Below, in pieces: positions 42,082-60,563 of a stretch of 64,000 nucleotides of DNA. The position numbers were made by a program, and so were the translations under genes. The notes beneath the pieces are model-generated. The model searched no databases and was not told where the DNA came from. It saw only the letters and a list, made by a program, of their open reading frames with translations. The stretch is from Pseudothermotoga hypogea DSM 11164 = NBRC 106472. Lineage in GTDB: Bacteria > Thermotogota > Thermotogae > Thermotogales > DSM-5069. Within the stretch, counting starts at the first letter, position 1. Every line of letters begins with the position of its first letter. The stretch covers positions 1,488,001 through 1,552,000 of the forward strand of contig NZ_CP007141.1 of the NCBI RefSeq assembly GCF_000816145.1, in the 5' to 3' direction.

Positions 42082-43773
42082 ATGGACTTCGGTAAGAAAC
42101 TCAGCCTTTTGATGAGCGTGTTGAGCGTTTCGAACAGTGCGCTCGCCAAAGCCTTGTCGGTGGACCCTTCCCTGATCAGCCGTTGGAGGTCGGGTTCGAG
42201 AATTCCCGCGAAAGACAGCGGTTACATCGAAATGATCGCTTCTTATTTGGTGGAACACGCCAAGATGGAGCACCAAAAGCTTGCCATATGTGAGATCACA
42301 GGCTGTGTTCCGGAGGCACTCGAAAAGGAGGAACTCAAAGAACTCGTGAAGAGATGGCTGATGGATGCACCCATACCCGATACTCGAGTGATAGGTGGTT
42401 TTCTGAGCAAGGTAGGGTTGTTCAGGATCCCCCAGGCTCAGGTGCAGTTTCCTACGATGACTCTGGAAGGACAAACGGCTAACTTCGAGGTTTTCTTTGG
42501 TAAAGAAGGAAAGCAACGTGCAGCGATGAAGTTCCTCCTCCACGCGATGAATTCGAAAGAACCAGGCACAATACTCTTGTACAGCGATGAGAGCGTCGAT
42601 TGGTTCCTCGTCGACAGAGAGTACGCCTTGCGACTCGGCGCGACGATGATCGAGCTCACCAAGAGAGGCTGGAAGATCAACATGGTTCACACGTTGAGCA
42701 GGGATATTTCAGAAATGCTCCGTGCGATAGAGTTCTGGCTACCCCTCTACATGACGGGTTCTGTGACACCTTACTACAACCCCAAGTACAGAGTAACACT
42801 ATTTTAGGAGGACTCTCTTCGTCGTGCCGAAGTTGGTGGCCCTCACCTGCGCGGCGTTTGAAGACTTCCCACAAACTGTGAACCTCCTAACGACGGAACC
42901 ACACGTGGTTGAATTGTTCGAACAAGAGTACCAGCAATTTTTGAACACGTGCCGACCACTCATGCGCATACCGCTATTTTAGGAGGACTCTCTTCGTCGT
43001 GCCGAAGTTGGTGGTGGCCCTCACCTGCGCGGCGTTTGAAGACTTACCCACAAACTGTGAACCTCCTAACGACGGAACCACACGTGGTTGAATTGTTCGG
43101 ACAAGAGTACCAGCAATTTTTGAACACGTGCCGACCACTCATGCGCATACCGCAAGTTGGTTCACAGGAGATGTTTTCACTCTTGGAAGACTTCGAAGAT
43201 CAATCCGCAACGTGTCTTGTGATCAGCGATGGTCTGCCACTGGTCACCATGCCAGGTGAGGTCTTGGGGAGGATCTTGGAACGAAATTCGTTGAAAGACT
43301 CCGAGCAGATCCTCTCACACTGGAGAAAACGAACCGCTTCGTTCGAAAGGAATCTGAAGCAACATTCACACATTCACATCGTCGCACTGCCCGACGTCGA
43401 ACAAGTGAAAGCCGCCAAAGGCGTCGTGGAACTGCCCGAATCTGGCGGTATCCTGTTCTACACGGTTGAAGAATACGTGGATCATCTGAAACATTTACTT
43501 TCTCTGTTGAAAAAGTACGAGAACTATCAGTTGTGCATCTCTCCAAGGAGCATGAGTGCCAGCGTGCACACAGCAGTGAAAGACCAGATCGGTGTGCTCG
43601 TGTTCAAGAAAGATCCTCCCGTGAGACTGTTTGCGATGAACCATCCGGACATGACGAACGCGTTCTACTGTTACGCCGAGGATTTTCTGAATAGACTGCC
43701 ACCGCAGAGCAAGAACAAAGAGCAAGTGATCGAAACGATCCAACTGATGATACGACAACTCGAAAACCACTGA
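42082..43773 (+). pseudogene. HTH transcriptional regulator broken by frameshifts and a tandem duplication
   Basis: The first part (42082-42807) has an XRE-like helix-turn-helix (NSALAKALSVDPSLISRWRSG) and a helical domain, and runs to PYYNPKYRVTLF then TAG. In another frame the next bases read HYFRRTLFVVPKLVALTCAAFEDF, a natural continuation. A 175-base tandem copy follows. The second copy has a 1-base and a 3-base insertion, after which the original frame continues through LLTTEPHVVELFGQEYQQF to a 43773 stop. The restored protein would be over 480 aa. The apparent AGGAGG inside each copy codes for Arg-Arg and may not be a start signal. Confidence 0.78.
42799..43152 (+). repeat. imperfect tandem duplication, 175 and 179 bp
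   Basis: Unit 1 is 42799-42973 and unit 2 is 42974-43152. Both begin CTATTTTAGGAGGACTC and end at GCGCATACCG. Differences are an extra GTG, one inserted A (CTTACCC against CTTCCC) and one A to G change (GAA/GGA codon). Only unit 2 joins the unique downstream sequence. Confidence 0.95.
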
Positions 43774-46012: not shown

Positions 46013-46087
46013 GGGTGCGTAGCTCAGAGGAAGAGCGTCTGCCTTACGAGCAGAAGGTCGTAGGTTCGAGTCCTGCCGCACCCACCA
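46013..46087 (+). tRNA. tRNA-Val (anticodon TAC)
   Basis: Acceptor GGGTGCG pairs with CGCACCC, and the encoded CCA follows. The D arm is GCTC ... GAGC. The anticodon loop CTTACGA gives TAC. The T arm contains TTCGAGT. A possible -10, TATATT, lies about 20 bases upstream. Confidence 0.97.
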
Positions 46088-46094
46088 AAGGAGT

Positions 46095-46170
46095 GGCCAG
46101 GTAGCTCAGTTGGTAGAGCACTGGACTGAAAATCCAGGTGTCGGCGGTTCGATTCCGCCCCTGGCCACCA
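46095..46170 (+). tRNA. tRNA-Phe (anticodon GAA)
   Basis: Acceptor GGCCAGG pairs with CCTGGCC, with encoded CCA. The anticodon loop CTGAAAA gives GAA. The T arm GGCGG-TTCGATT-CCGCC is perfect. It is 8 bases after tRNA-Val and clearly co-transcribed. Confidence 0.97.
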
Positions 46171-46173
46171 ACG

Positions 46174-46198
46174 AGCCCGGCGCACGCCGGGCTTTTTG
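46174..46198 (+). terminator. tRNA operon terminator
   Basis: AGCCCGGC, GCAC loop, GCCGGGCT, then TTTTTG. It follows the tRNA-Phe CCA by 3 bases. Confidence 0.92.
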
Positions 46199-46342: not shown

Positions 46343-46370
46343 TTGTCTTTTTTTGTTTGTTTCGTATTAT
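46343..46370 (+). promoter_or_regulatory. promoter of the chemosensory operon
   Basis: TTGTCT, 16 bases, TATTAT, about 55 bases before the parA-like ATG. The stretch 46199-46425 has no gene and is much richer in A+T than its surroundings. An inverted repeat AGTTA ... TAACT (about 46321-46339) just before the -35 could be an operator. Confidence 0.55.
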
Positions 46371-46425: not shown

Positions 46426-47196
46426 ATGGCAAAGACTCTTAGTTTTGCCAATCTCAAGGGAGGAACTGGGAAAACCACACTATGTTACAACATCGCTGCT
46501 CTGTTCGTGGATATGGGCTACAGAAGCTTGCTCATCGATCTCGACGCTCAAGCCCATGCTACGACCCACGCCGGTTTTGAACCGATCAAAATAAAGAAAG
46601 GCGTCTTCGAAGCAATCAGTGAGTATCTGAAAAAACAGAGTGTGGACAGTCAGGTTATTCTTCGCCAGCAAGGATTGTCCATACTGCCTTCCAACTCCAA
46701 GACAGTGCTTCTGGAGGAAGAACTCGCATCGCTCACAAACAAGGAAAGTGTCTTGAAAGACTTCCTCATGGAGCTTGACAGAGACTTCGATTTCATTTTC
46801 ATAGACACCCCACCTTCTTTAGGGTTAACAGTCTTGAATGCACTCGTCGCTTCTGACTACCTTTTGATACCCGTGAGGTTCGACTTTTTCTCCCTCGTTG
46901 GTCTGGCACAGATGATCAACTTCTACTACAAAGTCAACACAACGCTCTCGCCCTACCTCAAATTGCTCGGTTTGATACCAATTTCGATCTCAGCAAGGGC
47001 GCGTGTATGCAACGACGTGTTGAACGAGCTCAGGACCACCTTCGGTGAAAAGCTTCTGTTTCCAACGCTGAGAAACGACATCAAAGTTGTCGAAGCATCG
47101 AGTCACGGCTTGCCCGTTCATCGCTATGCACCCAAGAGTAGGGCGAGTGAGGACCTGACGAAGATCAGCCAAGAGATCCTGCGGAGGCTGACTTGA
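46426..47196 (+). CDS. ParA/MinD-family ATPase heading the chemosensory operon
   Basis: ParA-type ATPases bind DNA non-specifically when ATP-bound and position cargo such as plasmids, origins or chemosensory arrays. The deviant Walker A LKGGTGKTT lies at residues 10-18, LIDLDAQAHAT is A', and FIDTPPSLG is the Walker B. Length is 256 aa, the small chromosomal Soj-like type without an N-terminal HTH. The ATG at 46426 is 13 bases after GGAGG, and TGGAGG can pair with CCTCCA covering the start. The next genes are a ParB-tip-like TPR protein and then chemosensory genes, so this ATPase probably positions the array and not the chromosome. Confidence 0.9.
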   Translation: MAKTLSFANLKGGTGKTTLCYNIAALFVDMGYRSLLIDLDAQAHATTHAGFEPIKIKKGVFEAISEYLKKQSVDSQVILRQQGLSILPSNSKTVLLEEELASLTNKESVLKDFLMELDRDFDFIFIDTPPSLGLTVLNALVASDYLLIPVRFDFFSLVGLAQMINFYYKVNTTLSPYLKLLGLIPISISARARVCNDVLNELRTTFGEKLLFPTLRNDIKVVEASSHGLPVHRYAPKSRASEDLTKISQEILRRLT

Positions 47197-47197
47197 G

Positions 47198-47500
47198 ATG
47201 TCGAAGAGGCTGGGTAGAGGTTTGGATCTGTTTCTTTCGGAGCCATCCGAAGAACAACTTTTCAGAAGCGCCGTTGAGCTTGAAGAGAACGGCGAGTGGC
47301 TCATGGCCTTTCATTTGTACATGATGGTGATAAACATGAGCGGACCTCACAAGGTCAAAGCTCTCAACAACGCCGCGGCTATACTCGCAGAACATGGCTT
47401 CGTGGACAAAGCGATCGAGTTTCTAAAGGAGGCACTCTCCATCGACCCATCCAACGAGCAAATAAAGGAGAACTTGAAAGCGCTGAAGGAGGAGCGATGA
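47198..47500 (+). CDS. small TPR-like protein with a ParB-type N-terminal tip
   Basis: This 100-aa protein begins MSKRLGRGLDLFLSE. KRLGRGLxxL is the form of the N-terminal peptide by which ParB stimulates ParA. No ParB DNA-binding domain follows. Instead there are TPR-like helices (EEQLFRSAVELEENGEWLMAF; KALNNAAAILAEHGFVDKAIEFLKEALSIDPSNEQIK). It starts 1 base after the ParA stop and ends 1 base before the Hsp70-like gene. I infer an adaptor that links ParA to the protein cargo through TPR contacts. The general TPR call is firm; the ParB likeness rests on about 10 residues. Confidence 0.8.
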   Translation: MSKRLGRGLDLFLSEPSEEQLFRSAVELEENGEWLMAFHLYMMVINMSGPHKVKALNNAAAILAEHGFVDKAIEFLKEALSIDPSNEQIKENLKALKEER

Positions 47501-47501
47501 G

Positions 47502-48992
47502 ATGATCGTTGGTATAGATTTCGGTACAACGAACACGTTGGTGGCTTACGTGGACAGTTCATTGAGAACCCAGATCATCGTCAATGAGCGTGGTTCTCGC
47601 ATAACACCAACGGTCGTTTACTTCAAGAACGAAAAACAAGTGGTCGTGGGCGAGTTGGCAAAATCTCAGGCGCTCATTAAACCTGATAGAACCATCCTTC
47701 GCGTGAAGCGTGTGATGGGAACGAGTCGAACGTACACGATCTTCGATCAAACGTTCACGCCCTCGGAGATCGCTTCGTTCGTGTTCAGAAAGTGCAAGAA
47801 GTTCGCCTCGGAGTATCTCGGAAAAGAAGTCGAAAAAGCCGTCGTTACCGTACCAGCTTATTTCGACGACAACCAACGACAAGCGGTGGTATTGGCGGCG
47901 AAACTCGCAGGCTTGGAAGTGGTGAAACTGTTGAACGAACCCACCGCCGCTGCTCTGGCTTACGAACCAGAAGATCAGCACGAAAAGATGATACTCGTGC
48001 TCGATTTTGGCGGAGGTACCTTTGACATAACCTTGATGCGTCAGCAGAAAGGTCTTTACGAAGTGCTCGCCACTGGTGGTAGCACGAATCTTGGAGGCTT
48101 CGACTTCGACGAAGTGCTGACCAGGTGGATTTTGGAGACCATGCGGAACGAAAAGTCGATCGATTTGTCCAAAGATCCCATAGCGTTACAGCAGATATAC
48201 ACGCACGCTGAACAGGCGAAGATAGATCTTTCAAGCGTTCTCGAAACCAGCATCGTCATACCTTACATAGCTCTCTCACCGGAGTATGGGCCTGTTCATG
48301 TGAACGTCGTGCTGTCGAGGGAGAGATTCGAGAACTTGACCCGCTCCCTGTTGCTCAGGGCGCAACAACTGATAGACGACGTTTTGACACAAGCCAACGT
48401 TCGAAGCGAAGACGTGAACATCGTCATTTTCTCTGGTGGGATCTCCAGGATGCCCGCATTCAGAGAACTGGTTTCAAGAATGTTTCCAAACTCGCAGAAA
48501 CTCGGAGGGATAAACCCAGACGAGGTGGTTGCCGTCGGTGCAGCAAAGATGGCCGCGATGCTGGAAGGAAGGTTGAACAGCATCGAGTTGAAGGACGTAC
48601 TTCCACATTCGCTTGGCATCTTGGATGACAATGGCCAGTTCGTTCCCATCATCGAGCGCGGAACTATCTATCCAACCACGTCGACAAGGATCTTTACCAA
48701 CACCGAGGACGATCAGGATCACGTCGTGATAAAGGTTCTGCAGAAACACGATGAAGAGTTGGTGGAACTGGGAGACTTCAAATTCTCCTCTGGAAGGCTC
48801 TGGAAAAAGGGTGAGGCGAACATCGCCGTCAGTTTTTCCATCACACACGATGGGACCTTGACCGTGACAGCCGAAGACATCAACAGCGGTGAGGCTCAGG
48901 ATGTGACCATCCACGGACAGTTTGCCCAGATGAGGGTGCCAACACCCGACCCGCGGAGGATGGAACAGTTGTGGGGTATCGAGGTCTTGTGA
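47502..48992 (+). CDS. Hsp70-like protein without C-terminal lid
   Basis: This is an Hsp70/DnaK-family protein of 496 aa. The ATPase domain shows IDFGTTNTLVAY at the start, VTVPAYFDDNQRQA, NEPTAAALAY, DFGGGTFDITLM (Asp 168) and FSGGISRMP. A beta-sandwich substrate domain follows (DVLPHSLGILDDNGQFVPIIERGT; TVTAEDINSGEAQDV). DnaK would continue about 100 more residues into a helical lid; here it ends soon after with RRMEQLWGIEVL. No DnaJ or GrpE gene is adjacent. It may chaperone array proteins or act as a switchable ATPase scaffold. Confidence 0.92.
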   Translation: MIVGIDFGTTNTLVAYVDSSLRTQIIVNERGSRITPTVVYFKNEKQVVVGELAKSQALIKPDRTILRVKRVMGTSRTYTIFDQTFTPSEIASFVFRKCKKFASEYLGKEVEKAVVTVPAYFDDNQRQAVVLAAKLAGLEVVKLLNEPTAAALAYEPEDQHEKMILVLDFGGGTFDITLMRQQKGLYEVLATGGSTNLGGFDFDEVLTRWILETMRNEKSIDLSKDPIALQQIYTHAEQAKIDLSSVLETSIVIPYIALSPEYGPVHVNVVLSRERFENLTRSLLLRAQQLIDDVLTQANVRSEDVNIVIFSGGISRMPAFRELVSRMFPNSQKLGGINPDEVVAVGAAKMAAMLEGRLNSIELKDVLPHSLGILDDNGQFVPIIERGTIYPTTSTRIFTNTEDDQDHVVIKVLQKHDEELVELGDFKFSSGRLWKKGEANIAVSFSITHDGTLTVTAEDINSGEAQDVTIHGQFAQMRVPTPDPRRMEQLWGIEVL

Positions 48993-49005: not shown

Positions 49006-50052
49006 ATGCAGAACGATGAGAAACTCAGAAAACTCACCGAGATCGAAAAGGTCTCTTCGCCTGAGGATGTGGATGTACTGATCGAGGCTCTCAAGAGCGA
49101 CGATGTGCTCATCAGGGAGGCTGCCTTCGACAAACTCAAGCAATTCAAGTTCCCGCAAGTACCTGTGAAGGTCGCGAAACTCTTCAAAGACAGCGAAGCA
49201 TACGTCAGAAACGCTGCTGTGCTGCTGATGGCGGAGATGTGGGATCTGTCGAAGGAAGAACTGACGAAACTGTTGCACGATCCAGACAAAGATGTGCGTA
49301 AGCTCGCGCTGGACAGTCTGCATTACGTGGTGGGCGATCCTTCCGTTGAGGATCTCATAGCCGTCGGTCTGGAAGATGTCGAATTGAACAACGTGATAGC
49401 CGCCGTTGAATATCTGGGTGAACTGCAAAGCAAAAAGTACACGGATTGCATACTCAAGTTGCTCGCCGAGGGTGACAACGAATTTCTATTGGCAACGTGC
49501 ATCAGAGCACTATCGAAGATGGCGGATGAAAGAATTGCTGAGAGAGTCGTTCAGCTTTTCCCTGAGCTCGAGAGGATCGACGACATCACCTTGATGGCTT
49601 ATCTCAGGTTTCTTGCGAGTTTCCCAAGAACATTGAAGAACTTGAGCTCACTGATCGACTTGGCCGAAAAGAAGTGGGACATAGCGCTCAAAGAGTTTTT
49701 GGATCTGTTCGCGGCGATCTTGGATACAACAGAACTCAGCGCGGAACAGAAGGACAGAATGTTCGAATTCCTCAGGCGCATCTTCGCTTCGGACATACCT
49801 TCCCCGAACAAGTACGAAGTGCTCCTTCTCATGGCGAGGTTGAATCCAGACCACGTGAAAAGAGAGATCGTCAACTATCTGTACAGCAACGATCCCATGA
49901 TCCAGCTCGCCGCCGTCGAGCTGATCGACCAGTTCTCGTGGGTGGATTACCTCGATGATCTCAAGCACATCTGCGCGTCAGCAGTGGATGAAGATCTCAG
50001 GGCAGCGGCGGAGTTGGTGATCGAGAGGTTCGAAAACGTGGAAAGGGAATGA
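49006..50052 (+). CDS. HEAT-like helical repeat protein
   Basis: This 348-aa protein is built of HEAT/armadillo-like helix pairs, for example VDVLIEALKSDDVLIREAAFDKLKQF, VPVKVAKLFKDSEAYVRNAAVLLMAEM, LTKLLHDPDKDVRKLALDSLHYV and MIQLAAVELIDQFSWVD. The Asp-Val-Arg-Ala pattern (DxxVRxxA) is repeated. It has no signal or TM segments. It lies between the Hsp70-like gene and cheR and overlaps the latter by 4 bases. HEAT proteins serve as scaffolds; array assembly is a plausible role. Confidence 0.88.
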   Translation: MQNDEKLRKLTEIEKVSSPEDVDVLIEALKSDDVLIREAAFDKLKQFKFPQVPVKVAKLFKDSEAYVRNAAVLLMAEMWDLSKEELTKLLHDPDKDVRKLALDSLHYVVGDPSVEDLIAVGLEDVELNNVIAAVEYLGELQSKKYTDCILKLLAEGDNEFLLATCIRALSKMADERIAERVVQLFPELERIDDITLMAYLRFLASFPRTLKNLSSLIDLAEKKWDIALKEFLDLFAAILDTTELSAEQKDRMFEFLRRIFASDIPSPNKYEVLLLMARLNPDHVKREIVNYLYSNDPMIQLAAVELIDQFSWVDYLDDLKHICASAVDEDLRAAAELVIERFENVERE

Positions 50053-50885
50053 TCGCCGTGTCGGTGAGCTTTGGTTTTGCTGAATTCAAAGAAATCAGGG
50101 ATCTTATCCACACAAAGACTGGAATCTACATACCTGACGAGAAGATCTACCTTTTGAAGAAAAGAGTTGAGAAACGCTTGGCGGAACGATCCATCAAGAG
50201 CGTCGAAGAGTATGTCAAACTTCTCAGATACTTCGATCGCGGAGGCGAAGAGTTCGCCAAGCTGATAAACGACGTGGCTGTCAACGAAACTTACTTCTTC
50301 AGGGAGTTTCCACAGCTTCAGATCTTCGCGGAGTATTGTCTACCTGAGTATGTTGAACGGACGAAAACCAAATTCGTAAAGGTGCTGTCGGCGGGATGTT
50401 CATCCGGTGAGGAGCCTTACACTCTGTCGATCATATGTTCTGAAATGCTCGACAGCGATTGCACGTTCAAAATCGTGGCCGTTGATATAGACGACGACGC
50501 ACTCGAGAAAGCGCAGAGGGCAATTTACGATCAAAGATCGGTGAAGGACGTGCCCAAGCTGTATTTGAAGAAGTACTTCAAGCAGGCGGAGCAAGGCTAC
50601 GCGGTATCGGACGAGGTCAAAAAGTACGTCACGTTCTACAAGATGAACCTGCTCGATCGTGACCAGCTGTTGAGTTTGGGAAGAGACTTCGACTTCATCT
50701 TCTGTAGGAACGTGCTGATATACTTCTCCGACGACTCCAGGCGCAGAGTCGTGGAGACTTTCTTTCTGATGATGAAGCCCGGTGGCTACATCTTCTTGGG
50801 ACATTCAGAATCGTTGAGCAGGATCACCACGCTCTTTGAACTCAGAAGAATGGGAAATGGCTTGGTCTATCGAAAGCCTCTGTGA
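50049..50885 (+). CDS. cheR: CheR chemoreceptor methyltransferase
   Basis: CheR methylates glutamates on chemoreceptor helices using SAM. The N-terminal helical domain (IRDLIHTKTGIYIPDEK; INDVAVNETYFFREFPQ) is followed by the SAM fold VLSAGCSSGEEPYTLSI, VAVDIDDDALEKAQ and CRNVLIYFS. It has 278 aa, with no extra receptor-tethering tail. The ATG overlaps the upstream stop (ATGA). It probably modifies the double-tip receptor encoded downstream. Confidence 0.96.
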   Translation: MIAVSVSFGFAEFKEIRDLIHTKTGIYIPDEKIYLLKKRVEKRLAERSIKSVEEYVKLLRYFDRGGEEFAKLINDVAVNETYFFREFPQLQIFAEYCLPEYVERTKTKFVKVLSAGCSSGEEPYTLSIICSEMLDSDCTFKIVAVDIDDDALEKAQRAIYDQRSVKDVPKLYLKKYFKQAEQGYAVSDEVKKYVTFYKMNLLDRDQLLSLGRDFDFIFCRNVLIYFSDDSRRRVVETFFLMMKPGGYIFLGHSESLSRITTLFELRRMGNGLVYRKPL

Positions 50886-50896
50886 GGTGTTGAAGC

Positions 50897-51277
50897 ATGG
50901 CGAGGATCTTGATCGTGGATGACTCGAAGATGACGCGCGATTTTCATGCCTATGTTCTTCGTGCCTCGCGCTACGAGGTCGTGGAAGCCATCGACGGGGC
51001 CGATGCGATCGAAAAGTTGTACAGACATCCAGACATAAAATGCATCGTCACGGACATAAACATGCCCAACATGGACGGTCTCACGATGCTGAAGAAAATC
51101 AGATCCACGCCGGAACTGGCGCACATTCCAGTGGTGGTGGTGACGACCATAGACAGGCCCGAAGAGCAAATGGAGGCACTGAAAGCCGGGGCGAACTTCT
51201 ATCTCATCAAGCCTGTGAAACCTTCGATCCTCGTGGCGAGCATTCGCATGGTCGTGCGGGACGGTGACAGGGTATGA
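50897..51277 (+). CDS. CheY-like response regulator (first)
   Basis: This is a single receiver domain of 126 aa. The acidic pocket is in LIVDDSKMTR, the phosphorylated Asp in CIVTDINMPNMDG, Thr in VVTTI and Lys in LIKPVKP. With no flagellar genes nearby, it need not target a motor; it could act on the pilus or compete for CheA phosphate. The stop overlaps the cheA ATG (ATGA), so it is made together with the kinase. Confidence 0.95.
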   Translation: MARILIVDDSKMTRDFHAYVLRASRYEVVEAIDGADAIEKLYRHPDIKCIVTDINMPNMDGLTMLKKIRSTPELAHIPVVVVTTIDRPEEQMEALKAGANFYLIKPVKPSILVASIRMVVRDGDRV

Positions 51278-53691: not shown

Positions 53692-55665
53692 ATGGAAAGG
53701 AAAAGACTGGAAGTGCCAGAGAGTGAGGAAAAGAAGGCCGAGGAAAAACCAAAGGGAACTGGAATAAGATTGCGCGAAGACGAAGAGGAACTCAAGGCCA
53801 GAAGGGAAGAAGCTAAGAAACGTGCGCAAGAGCGTGCCAGAGCAAGAACCTTAGCCAAACGTCAAGCGCTCGCCGAAAGGATAGCGGGCGCATCGGAACA
53901 ACTCCTCTCCGGGGTCGAACAGGCATCGGCAGCTGCAGAAGAACTCTCCAGAGCCGTCGAACAGATCGCTGCGGGAGCCGAGGAATCTTCGAGTGCAGCG
54001 GACGAAACGAGGGCTGCGGTGGCACAGATTTCCGCGAGTGCCACGAACATACAGGAAGTCATCAAGCAGATGATGGCGGATGCGAACAACGCCCGTGAGG
54101 CCACCTCGATCATGATGGAGAACGTGCGAGGCTTGATCGAAGCAGTCGAGCACACCGTAGAGAAGAACAAAGAATCTGCCAAACTCATCGAGAAACTTGA
54201 AGAGGAATCCAACAAGATCGGTCAAATCGTCAAGACAGTCGTGATGATCGCGGATCAAACGAACTTGCTCGCTTTGAACGCAGCGATAGAGGCTGCGAGG
54301 GCCGGCGAACACGGTAGTGGTTTCGCCGTCGTCGCTGACGAAGTCAGAGGATTGGCGGAGGTGTCCGAGAGAGCTGCAAAGGAAATAACGAACGTGGTCG
54401 ACGAAATCGCCAACGCGGTGAAACAAACCGTGGCCGACATACAGAGAATCTCAGATGAATCTAAGCAACAATCCGAGCTCGGTATCCAAATAACCGAGGA
54501 ACTCAAAGAGATCGCCAAGAGCTTTGACGAACTCATCAACCACTTCCTCAAAATCCAAAAGGACATGGACGAAGTGGCCCGAGTTGCGAAGGAACTGCTG
54601 GCGGCCGCAGAACAGGTGGCGAGCGGTTCAGAACAGATAAGCTCTGCCGCGGTGGAATCCTCCAAGGCCGTTGAACAACAGGTGAAAGCGTTCGCGGAGA
54701 TCAAGACCGCAACACAGGAATTGGTCGAGCTCGCAGAGGAACTGAAGACGTCCACCGATACCAGCAAATCTTCCGAGACGGTCGCGGCGGCAGCCGAAGA
54801 ACTGTCTTCGAACATCGAAGTACTATCTTCTGCTGCGCAGCAGATCAGTTCTGGTATAGAACAGCTCAGCAAAGGTGCACAGTTGCTGTCGGAGGCCACG
54901 GAGAAAGGCAGAGAGATCGCTTCGGACCTCATGAAGAGAGTCAGTGACCTCCAGAGCTTGGTAAGCTCAGACGTGAAGCTCTTGCGCGAGTTCATCCAAA
55001 AATTTGCGGACAACAGGGTCAACATCGAGAAGCTGATATCCAACATAGGAGAGGCGGCCCAGCGTTATGGTGACGCTGCCAAGAACGTCTCAGAGCTCGA
55101 GAGCAGGGCTCGAAGGATAACCAAAACCGTTGACACGATCGACAGGGTGACCATACAGACGAACATGCTCGCGGTGAACGGATTCATCGAAGCCGCACGC
55201 GCTGGCGAGTATGGTAAGGGGTTCGCCGTGGTGGCGAACGACATAAGAAACCTCGCCAACGAATCTGGTTCCAACGCTGAACAGATCAAGGATCTGGTGA
55301 GCAACATGCAGTACCTCGTTGCCACAGTCTCTGCGGACATAAACGAATCTGTGAGAACGTCCATGGGTGAAGTGAACAGAGCCAAGGAAACCACAAAAAT
55401 CATAGAGCAAACGAGACAAGCGCTTGAGAAGCTCTTGGGCGCATTCGAGAATGTCAACAAGGAAATAGACCAGATCGCATCGGCAATAGAAGAAACGAAC
55501 AAAGCGATCGAGCAGATCAACGCAGCTGCTCAAGAGTCCGCGTCTGCGATCGAAGAAGCGTCCAAAGGTGCGAGTGAGCAAGCCAAAGGTATCGAGGAAC
55601 TGGCGAAAGCAATTGAGGAGATCGCCGCTATAGCAGATGAGCTTCAGTCGGAAGCGGGGGTGTAA
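53692..55665 (+). CDS. cytoplasmic chemoreceptor with two signalling tips
   Basis: This 657-aa soluble receptor has no TM or recognisable sensor domain. A highly charged helix (residues 1-60, KKAEEKPKG ... RRAEEAKKR-like) leads into the first signalling hairpin, whose tip ([20 protein letters not shown]) is at about 187-206. A second full hairpin has its tip ([21 protein letters not shown]) at about 487-507. Each arm is about 135-160 residues. Vibrio cholerae DosM is a known double receptor that stabilises sandwiched cytoplasmic arrays. The same architecture here suggests two parallel CheA/CheW sheets held apart by one polypeptide. Confidence 0.92.
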
Positions 55666-55668
55666 AGT

Positions 55669-57141
55669 ATGAGCACCTCCACTTTGGAACAGTACGTCAC
55701 TTTCATCCTCGGAGAAGAGACGTACGCCGTCTCAGTGGCGAACGTCAGGGAGATCGTCAAAGCGAGTAAGATCACACGGATCCCACTGGCTCCTGCGCAC
55801 ATCGAAGGTGTGATGAACCTCCGAGGTGAGGTGCTGCCCATAATCAATCTCAGGAAACTCCTTGGATTGCCAGAACATGATCCTTCGTTGTCGAAGGTTG
55901 TTGTACTGACACGGGACGGTAAGACGCTCGGTGTGCTGGTCGACAGAACGGCTCAGGTCATCAGGTCGACGGAGAGTGAACAACAGGATGCCATGGCCGA
56001 GAGCAAATTCGTGAAGAGGGTGTTGCGAACTAACGCTGGAATGTGCTTGCTTTTCGACATCGATGAACTGTTCGAGGAGGGTACGAAGAAGTTCGAAGGA
56101 CGAAGTTCCAGTGGATTACAAGAGAAAAGCACGGAAACGACAGTTACGAAAACGGAGAACTACACACAGTTGGTGTCCTTCGAACTCTCTGGGGGAATCT
56201 ACGCATTCAAGATCACCGGGGTGCAGGAGATCATCAGGTACGTCGAGCCAACACCAATCCCAAGCGCACCTGAATACATGATGGGCCTGATAGAACTGAG
56301 GAAGAGTGTCTTACCGATCGTTGACATGAGAAGACTGCTGGACCTTTCTGCGACAAAGACGGACGAGTTCACGAAGGTGATAGTACTCAGAGCGGGAGGT
56401 TCACTCGTTGGGGTCGTGGTGGACAGGATAAGGGAAGTGCTGAGGATTGACGAATCGAAGGTTCTTCCACCACCCACGCTGGAACGTGAGAAGACGAAGG
56501 AGCTCGTCGGAGTCATTCAGAACGACGATGAAATGATTCTGGTGATTGATCACGAGCAACTCTTGGCGAACAGAGTTGTGGGTACTCGGCAACAAGAACA
56601 AGAAGAAACAGTCGAAAGGCTGGCGAGCGAGGAAGAGAAGCAGTACGTCATTTTCAACGTGGGTGGTGAGGATTACGGTGTTCAAATCGAAGAAATCAGA
56701 GAAATAAACAGATTGACGTCGGTCGCAAAAGTACCCAGGGCTCCGGAATACCTCGAGGGGCTCATGAATTTGCGTGGGGAGATCGTACCCGTGGTGGATC
56801 TAAGAAAGAAATTCGGATTGCTCACCGTTGAGAAGAACAAGCAGATGGAACGTGTCGTTGTCACTGAAAGCGATGGCAAGAAGATAGCCTTCATCGTGGA
56901 TTCAGTGGTGGGCGTGCGGCGCATCCCGGTCAGTGCGATAAGTGATCTACCAGACACGTTGACTGAAAGCGAGTCTGCCAGGTTCATCTCGAAGATCGCG
57001 CGCATTGGTGAACAGGTGGTTTTGTTGTTGCAGATGTCCAAGGTGCTGAGCGAGAGAGAAAAGCAAACGGTGACGAACGTGGCTGAGAAAGCGAGTGGCA
57101 AAGAAGATCAGCAGTCGAAGAAGTTGAGACGTTTGAAATGA
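55669..57141 (+). CDS. protein with three CheW domains
   Basis: This coupling protein has 490 aa. Three CheW domains lie at about 5-140 (YVTFILGEETYAVSVANVRE; GVMNLRGEVLPIINLRKLLG), 165-300 (FELSGGIYAFKITGVQEI; GLIELRKSVLPIVDMRRLL) and 322-455 (VIFNVGGEDYGVQIEEIRE; GLMNLRGEIVPVVDLRKKF). The middle copy has lost the NLRG form (ELRK). No single CheW gene is in the operon, so all CheW sites of this array come in threes. The ATG follows the receptor stop by 3 bases. A geometric role in hexagon packing is likely but inferred. Confidence 0.94.
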   Translation: MSTSTLEQYVTFILGEETYAVSVANVREIVKASKITRIPLAPAHIEGVMNLRGEVLPIINLRKLLGLPEHDPSLSKVVVLTRDGKTLGVLVDRTAQVIRSTESEQQDAMAESKFVKRVLRTNAGMCLLFDIDELFEEGTKKFEGRSSSGLQEKSTETTVTKTENYTQLVSFELSGGIYAFKITGVQEIIRYVEPTPIPSAPEYMMGLIELRKSVLPIVDMRRLLDLSATKTDEFTKVIVLRAGGSLVGVVVDRIREVLRIDESKVLPPPTLEREKTKELVGVIQNDDEMILVIDHEQLLANRVVGTRQQEQEETVERLASEEEKQYVIFNVGGEDYGVQIEEIREINRLTSVAKVPRAPEYLEGLMNLRGEIVPVVDLRKKFGLLTVEKNKQMERVVVTESDGKKIAFIVDSVVGVRRIPVSAISDLPDTLTESESARFISKIARIGEQVVLLLQMSKVLSEREKQTVTNVAEKASGKEDQQSKKLRRLK

Positions 57142-57151
57142 GGTGATCTTT

Positions 57152-58228
57152 TTGCCGAAGATCAGAGTCTTGGTCGCGGACGATTCCGCGCTCATGAGGA
57201 AGACGCTCAAGAGTCTCATTGAGTCCGACCCATCCCTGGTGGTGATCGACACCGCCAGGGATGGCGAGGACGCCGTTGAGAAGGCACGCAAACTGCAACC
57301 TGACGTGATAACCATGGACGTCAACATGCCAAAGATGGATGGTTTGACCGCTCTTCAGATCATAGTTGAAGAAGAGATAGCACCGGTGGTCGTGGTGTCT
57401 TCCCTCACGCAGGAAGGTTCAGTGACGGCGTTCGAAGCGTTGGAACTTGGCGCGTTCGACTACGTTCCCAAACCCGGTGGCACGGTCTCCTTGAACATAG
57501 GAGCGGTACGGGACGAGATCATATACAAGATAAAGGCTGCATACGAAGCCTCGAGGAGCACGAAAGTGATGCGGAGATTGGCTTCCGCGAAAAGCAAAGT
57601 GAAGATCGACACCTCCAAGAAGATCGTGACACCTTCTCCTGTCTCGGTGGATTTCTACGCGGTGGCCATAGGAATATCGACAGGAGGACCGAAAACCATC
57701 TACGATGTGCTCCCACAGCTTCCAGCGGACTTGAACGCCGCGGTGTTCCTCGTCCAACACATGCCACCCTCGTTCACAGCTCAGTACGCAGAAAGGCTCG
57801 ATCAATATTGCCAGCTCAAGGTTGTGGAAGCGTCCGACGGCATGCAGGTCACACCCGGAGTGGTGTACGTCGGCAAGGGTGGATTCCACCTGAAGCTCCG
57901 CAGGGCTGACGGTGGTTTGAAGATCTGGCTCTCTCGAATCCCCAAACACATGTTCATGCCCTCTGCGGACGTGATGATGGAATCAGTCCTCGAGCATTTC
58001 GGACCGAAGACGGTGGGTGTACTCATGACAGGTATGGGAGACGATGGTGCCAACGCGATGGTGAAGATAAAACAAGCCGGTGGCTACACGATAGCCGAAT
58101 CGGAAGAAACAGCCATAGTTTTTGGAATGCCAGCGGAAGCGATAAGGCGTGGTGGAGCTTGCGAAGTATTGCCTTCCTACGAGATAGCGAGCCGAATCCT
58201 GCGCAAAGTGGGGGTGAGGAGAGGATGA
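57152..58228 (+). CDS. cheB: CheB methylesterase/deamidase response regulator
   Basis: CheB removes receptor methyl groups when phosphorylated. The receiver (1-120) has LVADDSALMRK and ITMDVNMPKMDG. After a basic linker, the esterase triad is Ser176 (IGISTGGPKT), His203 (VQHMPP) and Asp297 (GMGDDGA). GTG at 57143 is in frame but abuts the GAGGTGAT ribosome site, so TTG at 57152 (MPKIRVLVADDS) is preferred. With CheR it gives this array a full adaptation system. The stop overlaps the next gene (ATGA). Confidence 0.95.
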   Translation: MPKIRVLVADDSALMRKTLKSLIESDPSLVVIDTARDGEDAVEKARKLQPDVITMDVNMPKMDGLTALQIIVEEEIAPVVVVSSLTQEGSVTAFEALELGAFDYVPKPGGTVSLNIGAVRDEIIYKIKAAYEASRSTKVMRRLASAKSKVKIDTSKKIVTPSPVSVDFYAVAIGISTGGPKTIYDVLPQLPADLNAAVFLVQHMPPSFTAQYAERLDQYCQLKVVEASDGMQVTPGVVYVGKGGFHLKLRRADGGLKIWLSRIPKHMFMPSADVMMESVLEHFGPKTVGVLMTGMGDDGANAMVKIKQAGGYTIAESEETAIVFGMPAEAIRRGGACEVLPSYEIASRILRKVGVRRG

Positions 58229-58593
58229 GCAAAAAGGTGCTCGTCGTCGACGATTCACCACTGGTGAGAAACTTGGTGAAGAAGGCGCTCGCTGGCAACA
58301 GTGAATTCTCTGTCGTTGGTGAAGCTTCGAATGGCAAAGAAGCCGTGGAAATGGCGCAAAAACTTGAACCTGATATCATCACTTTGGATGTGACGATGCC
58401 GGTGATGGATGGACTGGAGGCGGCAAGAGAAATTCTTAAAAGGAACAGCAGGGTCAAAATCCTTCTTCTGAGCGCGATGGGGGACGATTCTCTAATTTCT
58501 CAGGCCCAGAGTCTTGGGATAAAGCATTCACTCCAGAAACCGTTCAAAGCGGAGCAACTCTTGGAGGCGCTCGGAAAAGTCTTGGGGGCTTGA
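58225..58593 (+). CDS. CheY-like response regulator (second)
   Basis: This is a single receiver of 122 aa: LVVDDSPLVRN, ITLDVTMPVMDG, LLSAMGDD and QKPF. The Ser in LLSA replaces the Thr of the first CheY, which is normal for the family. It resembles the CheB receiver more than the first CheY in its opening. Its ATG overlaps the cheB stop. Output or phosphate-sink roles are equally possible. Confidence 0.94.
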   Translation: MSKKVLVVDDSPLVRNLVKKALAGNSEFSVVGEASNGKEAVEMAQKLEPDIITLDVTMPVMDGLEAAREILKRNSRVKILLLSAMGDDSLISQAQSLGIKHSLQKPFKAEQLLEALGKVLGA

Positions 58594-58596
58594 TCT

Positions 58597-59073
58597 ATGG
58601 ACAAGAGCATCGAAAAGTTGGTTCTGGAAAGCTTCATCAAGTCCATGTGCAGCGTGTACAAGAATCTGACCAACAAGGAACTGATCATCAAAGGAGTAGA
58701 AAAGATGATGAGCCCTGCGTTCAAGTATTCCGGAGCGGTCACGATCGTAGGTTTCTCCGGCATGATCTCTGGTAGAATGATCGTAGCCATGCCCAAGGAG
58801 TTGTCCGCGATCGTGTACGAAGCTCTGGGTGGGGAGCAACCTTCAGATGATGACTTGTTGCTCGCCGTGGGCGAGTTTGGCAACATGGTCGCTGGCAATG
58901 CCATCACGCGGATAAACAATCATTTGAAGGATGCCAATGTGAGACTATCACCACCAAGTTCCTTTCTCGGAAAGGACCTGACTTTCTTCAATTTCAAAAT
59001 GAATGCCCACAACATACTCTTCGAGTCGGAAGGTCTCGTCTCAAGGCTGAACATCGCGCTGAAGGAGGTTTAA
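58597..59073 (+). CDS. CheX-like CheY phosphatase (first)
   Basis: This CheX-family protein has 158 aa. The catalytic helix signature ExxN is in VGEFGNMVAGNAITRIN, and SGAVTIVGFSGMISGRMIVAM forms the typical strand pair. CheX dephosphorylates CheY-P. It starts 3 bases after the CheY stop. No CheC/CheD pair is present in this operon, so the two CheX-like proteins are its signal terminators. Confidence 0.88.
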   Translation: MDKSIEKLVLESFIKSMCSVYKNLTNKELIIKGVEKMMSPAFKYSGAVTIVGFSGMISGRMIVAMPKELSAIVYEALGGEQPSDDDLLLAVGEFGNMVAGNAITRINNHLKDANVRLSPPSSFLGKDLTFFNFKMNAHNILFESEGLVSRLNIALKEV

Positions 59074-59076
59074 CGA

Positions 59077-59520
59077 ATGATCGATGAACTTGCAAACATT
59101 GCCAAGCAAGTGCTCGTGAGCATGAACGTACAAGTTTCAGGAGTGAGACTTTCGAAGGATTCTTTGCACCTGGTCAACAGCCCTTTGTGTGTCGTCATAG
59201 GACTTGTGAACAAGAAAGGAGAAGAGAAGGGGATTCTCGGTTTTGAATTCAGCGAAGCGTTCGCGAAGTATGCCCTGAATTGTTTAATGCCCGGTTACAA
59301 CGTGGACATGCTTTCGGAGATTGGCCTGAGTGCCTTGCTGGAACTTGCAAACATGACGTGCGGAAACATGTTGACCCGTATTTCACCAGATGCCGTGACA
59401 ACTCCGCCCACGGCGGTATTCGGTAAAAATGCGAAGATGCTTTTGAACACGGCTCCTTGCTACAGGATGATCTTCGATACACCGAGCAGTTCTCTTGTGG
59501 TGAGCTTGAGCGTAACGTAG
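59077..59520 (+). CDS. CheX-like CheY phosphatase (second)
   Basis: This is a second, diverged CheX-like protein of 147 aa. The ExxN helix is in ALLELANMTCGNMLTRIS. FEFSEAFAKYALNCLMPGY fits the fold but other residues are poorly conserved. GGAGG lies ahead of the ATG. It could work as a heterodimer with the first copy or serve the other CheY or the HD-GYP regulator. Confidence 0.82.
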   Translation: MIDELANIAKQVLVSMNVQVSGVRLSKDSLHLVNSPLCVVIGLVNKKGEEKGILGFEFSEAFAKYALNCLMPGYNVDMLSEIGLSALLELANMTCGNMLTRISPDAVTTPPTAVFGKNAKMLLNTAPCYRMIFDTPSSSLVVSLSVT

Positions 59521-59531
59521 GAGGAAGAAAG

Positions 59532-60563
59532 ATGGGGATGGTGTCGGTTCTCATCGCTGAAGACGATGCCTACTACAGAAAATACTTGGAGAAGTCGCTC
59601 TTGAGCGCCGGGTTCACGGCGAGATCTTGCCAAGATGGACTCGAAGCTTATCATGCGTTCAGCTCGGATCCGGCGAGCTACAGGATACTGCTTGTCGATC
59701 TACTCATGCCGAACATGGACGGTTTCGAACTCATAAGGCAAGTGAGAACAAACTTCAAGCATCTGTATCCCTACATTTTCGTAGTCACATCCCTGGGGGA
59801 CGATGAGGACGTTGTGCGAGCATTACAAATCGGTGCCGATGAGGTCTTGATCAAACCGATAAGTCCTAAGAGACTCGTTGCTTCCGTGACTTCAGGTCTC
59901 CAAAAATTGAAACTGATCACTTTCGACGTCCTGATAGATTCCTTCGTTGAGATGTTGGACATGAGGGATCGATACACGGGGAGACATTCGAAAAACGTCC
60001 AACTGTTGGCGAGCTTGCTCGCTAAGCTGTACGCCGAGCAGGAAGACTTGACGAACGTGGACTTCATAAACGGCTTGTCGGCGGGTGCGGTTCTGCACGA
60101 CATAGGAAAGATATTGATACCCGAATCCATACTGCAGAAACCGGATAGACTGACCTCTGAAGAATTCGAAACGGTCAAGAAGCACACGATCTTCGGTTCG
60201 CAGATTCTCGTCCAATCTTTGATGAAGCATCCAGAGAACGACGTTTTGAAATTCGCTCATGAGGTGATCAGATCCCATCACGAGCGGTGGGACGGAAAGG
60301 GTTATCCGGATGGATTGAAAGAAACCGAGATACCATTGGTGGCCAGAATCGTGAAAATCGCCGACGTTTTCGACGCGTTGACCTCCGATAGATATTACAG
60401 GAAGGCTTATTCTCCAGAGGACGCAATCAAAATCATGGAGTCCGATGCGGACGCCTTCGATCCGGAAATCTTTGCTCTGTTCCTCGAGCATCGCAAATTC
60501 TTCATGGCCCTCGAAAGGAGAAAGTACGAAGAAGCTCGTAGAAACAGGAACTCATCCAACTAA
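59532..60563 (+). CDS. response regulator with HD-GYP c-di-GMP phosphodiesterase domain
   Basis: This is a two-domain output protein of 343 aa. The receiver has LIAEDDAYYR and LLVDLLMPNMDG, with Lys in LIKPISP. The HD-GYP domain shows RHSKNVQ, AVLHDIGKI and the full HHERWDGKGYPDG. Such domains hydrolyse cyclic di-GMP to pGpG or GMP. AGGAGG is 7 bases before the ATG. As the last gene of the operon and the only effector, it suggests that the array controls c-di-GMP. Confidence 0.95.
   Translation: MGMVSVLIAEDDAYYRKYLEKSLLSAGFTARSCQDGLEAYHAFSSDPASYRILLVDLLMPNMDGFELIRQVRTNFKHLYPYIFVVTSLGDDEDVVRALQIGADEVLIKPISPKRLVASVTSGLQKLKLITFDVLIDSFVEMLDMRDRYTGRHSKNVQLLASLLAKLYAEQEDLTNVDFINGLSAGAVLHDIGKILIPESILQKPDRLTSEEFETVKKHTIFGSQILVQSLMKHPENDVLKFAHEVIRSHHERWDGKGYPDGLKETEIPLVARIVKIADVFDALTSDRYYRKAYSPEDAIKIMESDADAFDPEIFALFLEHRKFFMALERRKYEEARRNRNSSN

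Follow-up and report, generated by a model that had tools for sequence, protein, structure and literature searches.

A ParB-like N-terminal peptide on a small TPR protein suggests probable ParA-based positioning of a cytoplasmic chemosensory array

In the window, a 64,000-nucleotide stretch of Pseudothermotoga hypogea DNA, a series of 14 same-strand genes begins with those for a ParA-family ATPase and a 100-residue adaptor, the ParA stop lying one base before the adaptor ATG (46426-47196 versus 47198). We preferred ATG 46426 to TTG 46402 as the start of ParA by its match to orthologues. The features of the locus are collected in Table 1. Judged by its two-headed receptor and triple CheW, which characterise the cytoplasmic F9 arrays of V. 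cholerae (PMC7534058), the operon is a second chemosensory system of the F9/DosM type in a genome with two CheA loci. Its receptor shows no transmembrane segment, the maximum 19-residue hydropathy being 1.13. The Hsp70 match stops at profile position 499 of 599 and its prok_dnaK score is 461 bits, short of the cut-off (822); the HEAT-repeat gene stands upstream of cheR in relatives too. Promoter-like sites number 4 in the stretch, compared with 1.0 ± 1.1 in shuffles.

Just upstream of the operon lie tRNA-Val and tRNA-Phe (46013-46194), with a terminator-like hairpin at 46173-46194. The adaptor has no match in any of the genus's other four genomes; gain of the operon at a tRNA site, or its loss elsewhere, may account for this pattern. 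Further upstream, an imperfect tandem duplication (42794-43158; spacing about 175-179 bases, copies 96-97% alike) separates a putative HTH regulator gene from the ORF that follows it.

Table 1. Features of the chemosensory operon and of its first two genes, in positions of the window.
Feature	Position	Strand	Basis and remarks
Promoter-like site before parA	46343-46370	+	TTGTCT-16-TATTAT, 9/12; weak, consensus alone
ParA-family ATPase, first operon gene	46426-47196	+	Deviant Walker A KGGTGKTT; AAA_31 1e-44
TPR adaptor gene	47198-47500	+	ATG start, 100 aa, begins MSKRLGRGLDLFLSEPSEEQLF
ParB-type candidate ParA-contact peptide MSKRLGRGLDLFL	47198-47236	+	LGRGL at 47210-47224; predicted flexible
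Two TPRs and capping helix of the adaptor (predicted)	47249-47494	+	AlphaFold2 pLDDT >90, Foldseek, TPR_2 3e-6
Hsp70/DnaK-like protein, 496 aa, without C-terminal lid region	47502-48992	+	HSP70 4e-134
HEAT-repeat protein	49006-50052	+	HEAT_2 7e-22
CheR	50049-50885	+	CheR 4e-57
CheY	50897-51277	+	Response_reg 7e-26
CheA, second of the genome	51274-53676	+	Hpt, H-kinase_dim, HATPase_c, CheW
Soluble DosM-like chemoreceptor, signalling regions in both halves	53692-55665	+	MCPsignal, 3 stretches; each half matched by NCBIfam receptor models
Triple CheW	55669-57141	+	CheW, 3 stretches, 1e-102
CheB	57143-58228	+	CheB_methylest 1e-60 and receiver
Second CheY	58222-58593	+	Response_reg 3e-29
CheX/CheC-type phosphatase	58597-59073	+	CheX 4e-17
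Second CheX-like protein	59077-59520	+	CheX 2e-9
Response regulator with HD domain	59532-60563	+	HD_5 5e-35 and receiver

A preliminary description of this DNA had read the adaptor as TPR-like helices behind a ParB-like tip, with neither a ParB box nor an HTH, and this architecture held up. Pfam matches are to TPR alone, above or near the cut-off, and neither a ParB_N/Srx domain nor an HTH was found with Pfam and NCBIfam. The AlphaFold2 model, with 24 orthologues in the alignment, reaches a mean pLDDT of 90, with residues 1-10 at about 51 and residues 1-4 below 50, and its helices (18-30, 34-45, 52-65, 69-82 and 87-99) make two TPRs and a cap. Foldseek gives consensus and designed TPR proteins as the nearest solved folds (TM 0.64-0.80). 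On this model, the 100-residue adaptor is a TPR fold behind a flexible N-terminus.

That N-terminus is a near match to the motif of chromosomal ParB. We collected 36 ParB-type sequences from a Firmicutes class and the phylum of the Caldatribacterium locus, both of which hold orthologues of the adaptor; 34 of them (12 distinct) contain an LGxGL segment, with the consensus RGLG[RK]GL[DE]AL[LIF]. The likeness to the ParA-contacting tip of ParB had been proposed earlier together with a profile search as its check, and a position-specific scoring matrix (PSSM) built from the 34 ParB N-termini alone, adaptors left out, bore it out: the adaptor scores 16.0 bits, or P 1.7e-5 per random N-terminus of operon composition, while the 13 remaining proteins of the operon lie at P 0.008-0.97. 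The receptor N-terminus, at P 0.31, is among the latter; the candidate contact peptide is on the TPR protein and not on the receptor. Orthologous adaptors score unevenly (P 3e-6 to 2e-3).

About 0.03 N-termini scoring like the adaptor are expected per ~2000 proteins, and by itself the PSSM score is suggestive of ParB likeness; position and conservation decide. A lone match to so short a motif is not very strange at that rate, and LGxGL could be an unrelated amphipathic tail, contacting the membrane, CheA or the array, that resembles ParB by convergence; that the central R/K of the motif is often lost would fit such an origin. We nevertheless regard it as highly improbable: small TPR proteins of the phylum that do not belong to the group (weaker matches in readable frames) show no LGxGL, and at each locus the pocket of the neighbouring ParA is largely of the ParB-binding type.

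Orthologues occur in 9 of 103 Thermotogota genomes, in 3 of 50 genomes from the phylum of the Caldatribacterium locus and in 15 of 63 genomes from the class of HGW-Firmicutes-15, and these make up the 27 loci compared here; a wider draw of 398 genomes from the phylum of HGW-Firmicutes-15 re-found five known orthologues and zero new ones. The preliminary description had named a motif not conserved in orthologues as grounds for giving its reading up; L-G-x-G-L is kept in 27/27 loci, across three phyla. L5, G6, G8 and L9 are invariant in the 24-row adaptor alignment, with the same motif in the remaining loci, and whereas the spacer that joins the peptide to the TPRs ranges in length from zero to about 30 residues, the peptide is constant. 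Adaptor residues L5, L9, F12 and L13 align with L11, L15, L18 and I19 of M. xanthus ParB, and R7 with R13 (positions from PMC12462528).

The central residue is less uniform. It is R/K in 8/9 Thermotogota, 3/3 Caldatribacterium-group and 1/15 Firmicutes adaptors, and is replaced by M, T, I or L in 14/15 Firmicutes adaptors and by M in 1/9 from Thermotogota. As judged from these alignments, the loss in many adaptors of a residue important in ParB counts against the peptide being an activator of the ParA ATPase. It might instead bind ParA as an anchor or inhibitor, without ATPase activation, so that the array would be tethered at a pole or a fixed site, as by ParC/ParP, and not be nucleoid-borne. 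Such a role would agree with the stricter retention of the hydrophobic binding residues than of the central R/K linked to stimulation (PMC12462528), and Vibrio ParC-ParP is indeed a polar, ParA-like array system (PMC5706961). However, 11/12 non-Firmicutes adaptors, the one in the window included, have the central R/K, Pfam finds no CheW-like domain in the adaptor, and the basic residue at the DNA-contact position R238 is kept (K/R in all 15 che-ParAs compared), which together make an anchor or inhibitor decidedly unlikely. A separate explanation of the lost R/K, avoidance of cross-talk with chromosomal ParB, fits the Firmicutes; we rejected it as a general rule because Caldatribacterium-group genomes pair an LGKGL ParB with LGRGL adaptors.

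The ParA of the window is Soj-type by its Walker A motif, its AAA_31 match and its similarity to the T. thermophilus segregation protein (1wcv, 1.5e-33). Its closest solved structure is 8ray (2e-36), which we read as the D60A construct of M. xanthus ParA described in PMC12462528 because its length and D-to-A change fit. The ParB site of M. xanthus ParA includes the hydrophobic residues V116, L150, L152, L155, L187 and L192, with Y81, E82, D110 and E117 round the motif arginine (PMC12462528). In the same numbering and order, the window ParA has E, L, L, L, K and L at the former and F, E, K and E at the latter positions, differing at three mapped sites (V116E, L187K and D110K). M. xanthus L150-L155 and L192 correspond to L131-L136 and L173 of the window ParA, numbered over the translation of 46429-47193. 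As far as aligned residues tell, the ParB-binding pocket is largely, not wholly, kept.

Most of these positions are conserved across 15 che-ParAs: L150 and G151 as well as an aromatic residue at Y81 are found in 15/15, position 155 is always L/I/V, and E82 and E117 are kept in 14/15 and 13/15, respectively. The 150-155 loop is not kept in the FlhG, MinD and Mrp of the genome, where positions 150, 151, 152 and 155 read I, E, R and R in MinD and F, N, E and E in FlhG. Position 187 is K/R in 15/15 che-ParAs, L in M. xanthus and E in T. thermophilus, a possible specificity mark of the che-ParA group. We also folded, as a monomer, the ParA-adaptor read-through chain that G056 yields when its single in-frame stop (TGA) is translated as G; its peptide (residues 259-268) has a pLDDT below 50 and is undocked in this monomer model, whereas the site needs a ParA dimer.

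The genome has no detected ParB_N domain and zero matches to the parS sequence TGTTNCACGTGNAACA at up to 1 mismatch. Nor was a ParB_N match of chromosomal-ParB strength found in any of the 103 Thermotogota genomes; the weak PF02195 matches in 7 of them (best 5e-9) were rejected as chromosomal ParB, as they look like other ParB-like proteins and lack the motif. Strong ParB_N matches are found in 59/63 and 41/50 genomes of the comparison groups (the Firmicutes class and the phylum of the Caldatribacterium locus, respectively). Because the pocket is mostly kept and the genome is without ParB_N and parS, the cargo is most naturally taken to be a protein, in support of the earlier proposal that ParA could be recruited to such a cargo and not to parS DNA. 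Wherever the flanks are long enough to judge, che genes surround the pair, and the cargo is therefore very probably a cytoplasmic chemosensory array.

Putting together sequence, structural models and analogy to known systems, we consider it likely that ParA positions the cytoplasmic F9/DosM-like chemosensory array via the TPR adaptor. Bound to ATP, ParA forms dimers that attach to the nucleoid non-specifically; here the adaptor would link ParA to the array, and the array would be tethered and positioned, the ParA-TPR pair serving as the cargo-positioning module of the second, purely cytoplasmic array. We infer the binding of the adaptor peptide to ParA, the stimulation of the ATPase and the identity of the array as cargo; the ParA motor probably positions a soluble sensor cluster rather than DNA.

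The order of ParA and then its presumed activator, likened at the outset to parA-parB, recurs throughout, with ParA directly upstream of the adaptor in 27/27 loci. An Hsp70 gene follows the adaptor directly in 26/27, and the whole CheA-ParA-adaptor-Hsp70 block is kept in most loci, so that linkage alone does not tell which protein the adaptor serves. TPR proteins are classic partners of Hsp70/Hsp90. The pair could accordingly serve the lidless Hsp70, with the TPR protein as co-chaperone and ParA positioning or releasing Hsp70 in array assembly, array positioning being secondary. We judge this unlikely: at G039 (L038 14980-17251), the sole such locus of the 27, ParA-adaptor adjoins the receptor with no Hsp70 in between, which argues that the pair is independent of a neighbouring Hsp70, and the window Hsp70 ends in WGIEVL and not in EEVD. 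Service to Hsp70 would itself still employ a ParB-like peptide on ParA. Two further loci show breaks: at G147 (L072/L073) a frameshift, from decay or sequencing error, splits the adaptor into two ORFs flanked by ParA and Hsp70, and at G102 (L035 1045-3042) the double-headed receptor reads as a pair of ORFs (418 and 247 aa) separated by a stop or break.

If ParA does position the array in this way, the tip with which ParB contacts ParA would be a transferable unit, able to function without DNA binding. The finding could also aid in predicting which cytoplasmic arrays ParA positions. With 256 and 100 aa, and coming from what is probably a thermophile, the pair would offer a compact target for the structure of a ParA dimer bound to its activator, which has been hard to obtain so far, the M. 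xanthus crystals being without peptide (PMC12462528). A further step, rather unlikely as we see it, would be that in Thermotogota the pair of ParA and ParB-type activator survives solely as an array cargo system, in which the lidless Hsp70 would take an active part by remodelling or splitting the array at division.

We found no ParA-TPR-Hsp70 chemosensory module in a search of mostly open-access literature, but its elements have known counterparts. With chromosomal ParA-ParB (Soj-Spo0J) the pair shares the order of ParA and activator, LG[RK]GL[DE] with a hydrophobic pair, and a largely common ParA pocket, whereas the partner here is without ParB_N or HTH and the genome without parS. Short basic N-terminal activator peptides on otherwise unrelated proteins are also known from PomX-PomZ, McdB-McdA and ParG-ParF; the PomX, McdB and ParG peptides are described as rich in basic residues (PMC7993993). 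Among arrays, the V. cholerae F9 system (CheA VC1397, triple CheW VC1402 and DosM VC1403) shares the soluble two-headed receptor and triple CheW (PMC7534058); the comparison covered receptor and CheW, and the operon here also has genes for ParA, TPR adaptor and Hsp70. Vibrio ParC-ParP likewise uses a ParA-like ATPase and an adaptor to localise chemosensory arrays (PMC5706961), the adaptor here being a TPR protein without a CheW-like domain. The closest precedent for a ParB-like peptide on a non-ParB protein is PpfA-TlpT of Rhodobacter sphaeroides: PpfA is a ParA homologue encoded in a che operon, next to a second CheA system, the receptors are soluble, and a ParB-like N-terminus makes the contact (PMC3964821, PMC7993993); ppfA homologues were found in che operons of 37% of the species studied (PMC2829493). 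In R. sphaeroides the receptor TlpT itself bears this N-terminus, whereas here it sits on a separate 100-residue TPR protein, in an F9/DosM-type operon with Hsp70. The positioning principle is already known from PpfA-TlpT, and the novelty is the dedicated TPR adaptor, its near-exact chromosomal ParB motif and the Hsp70 beside it.
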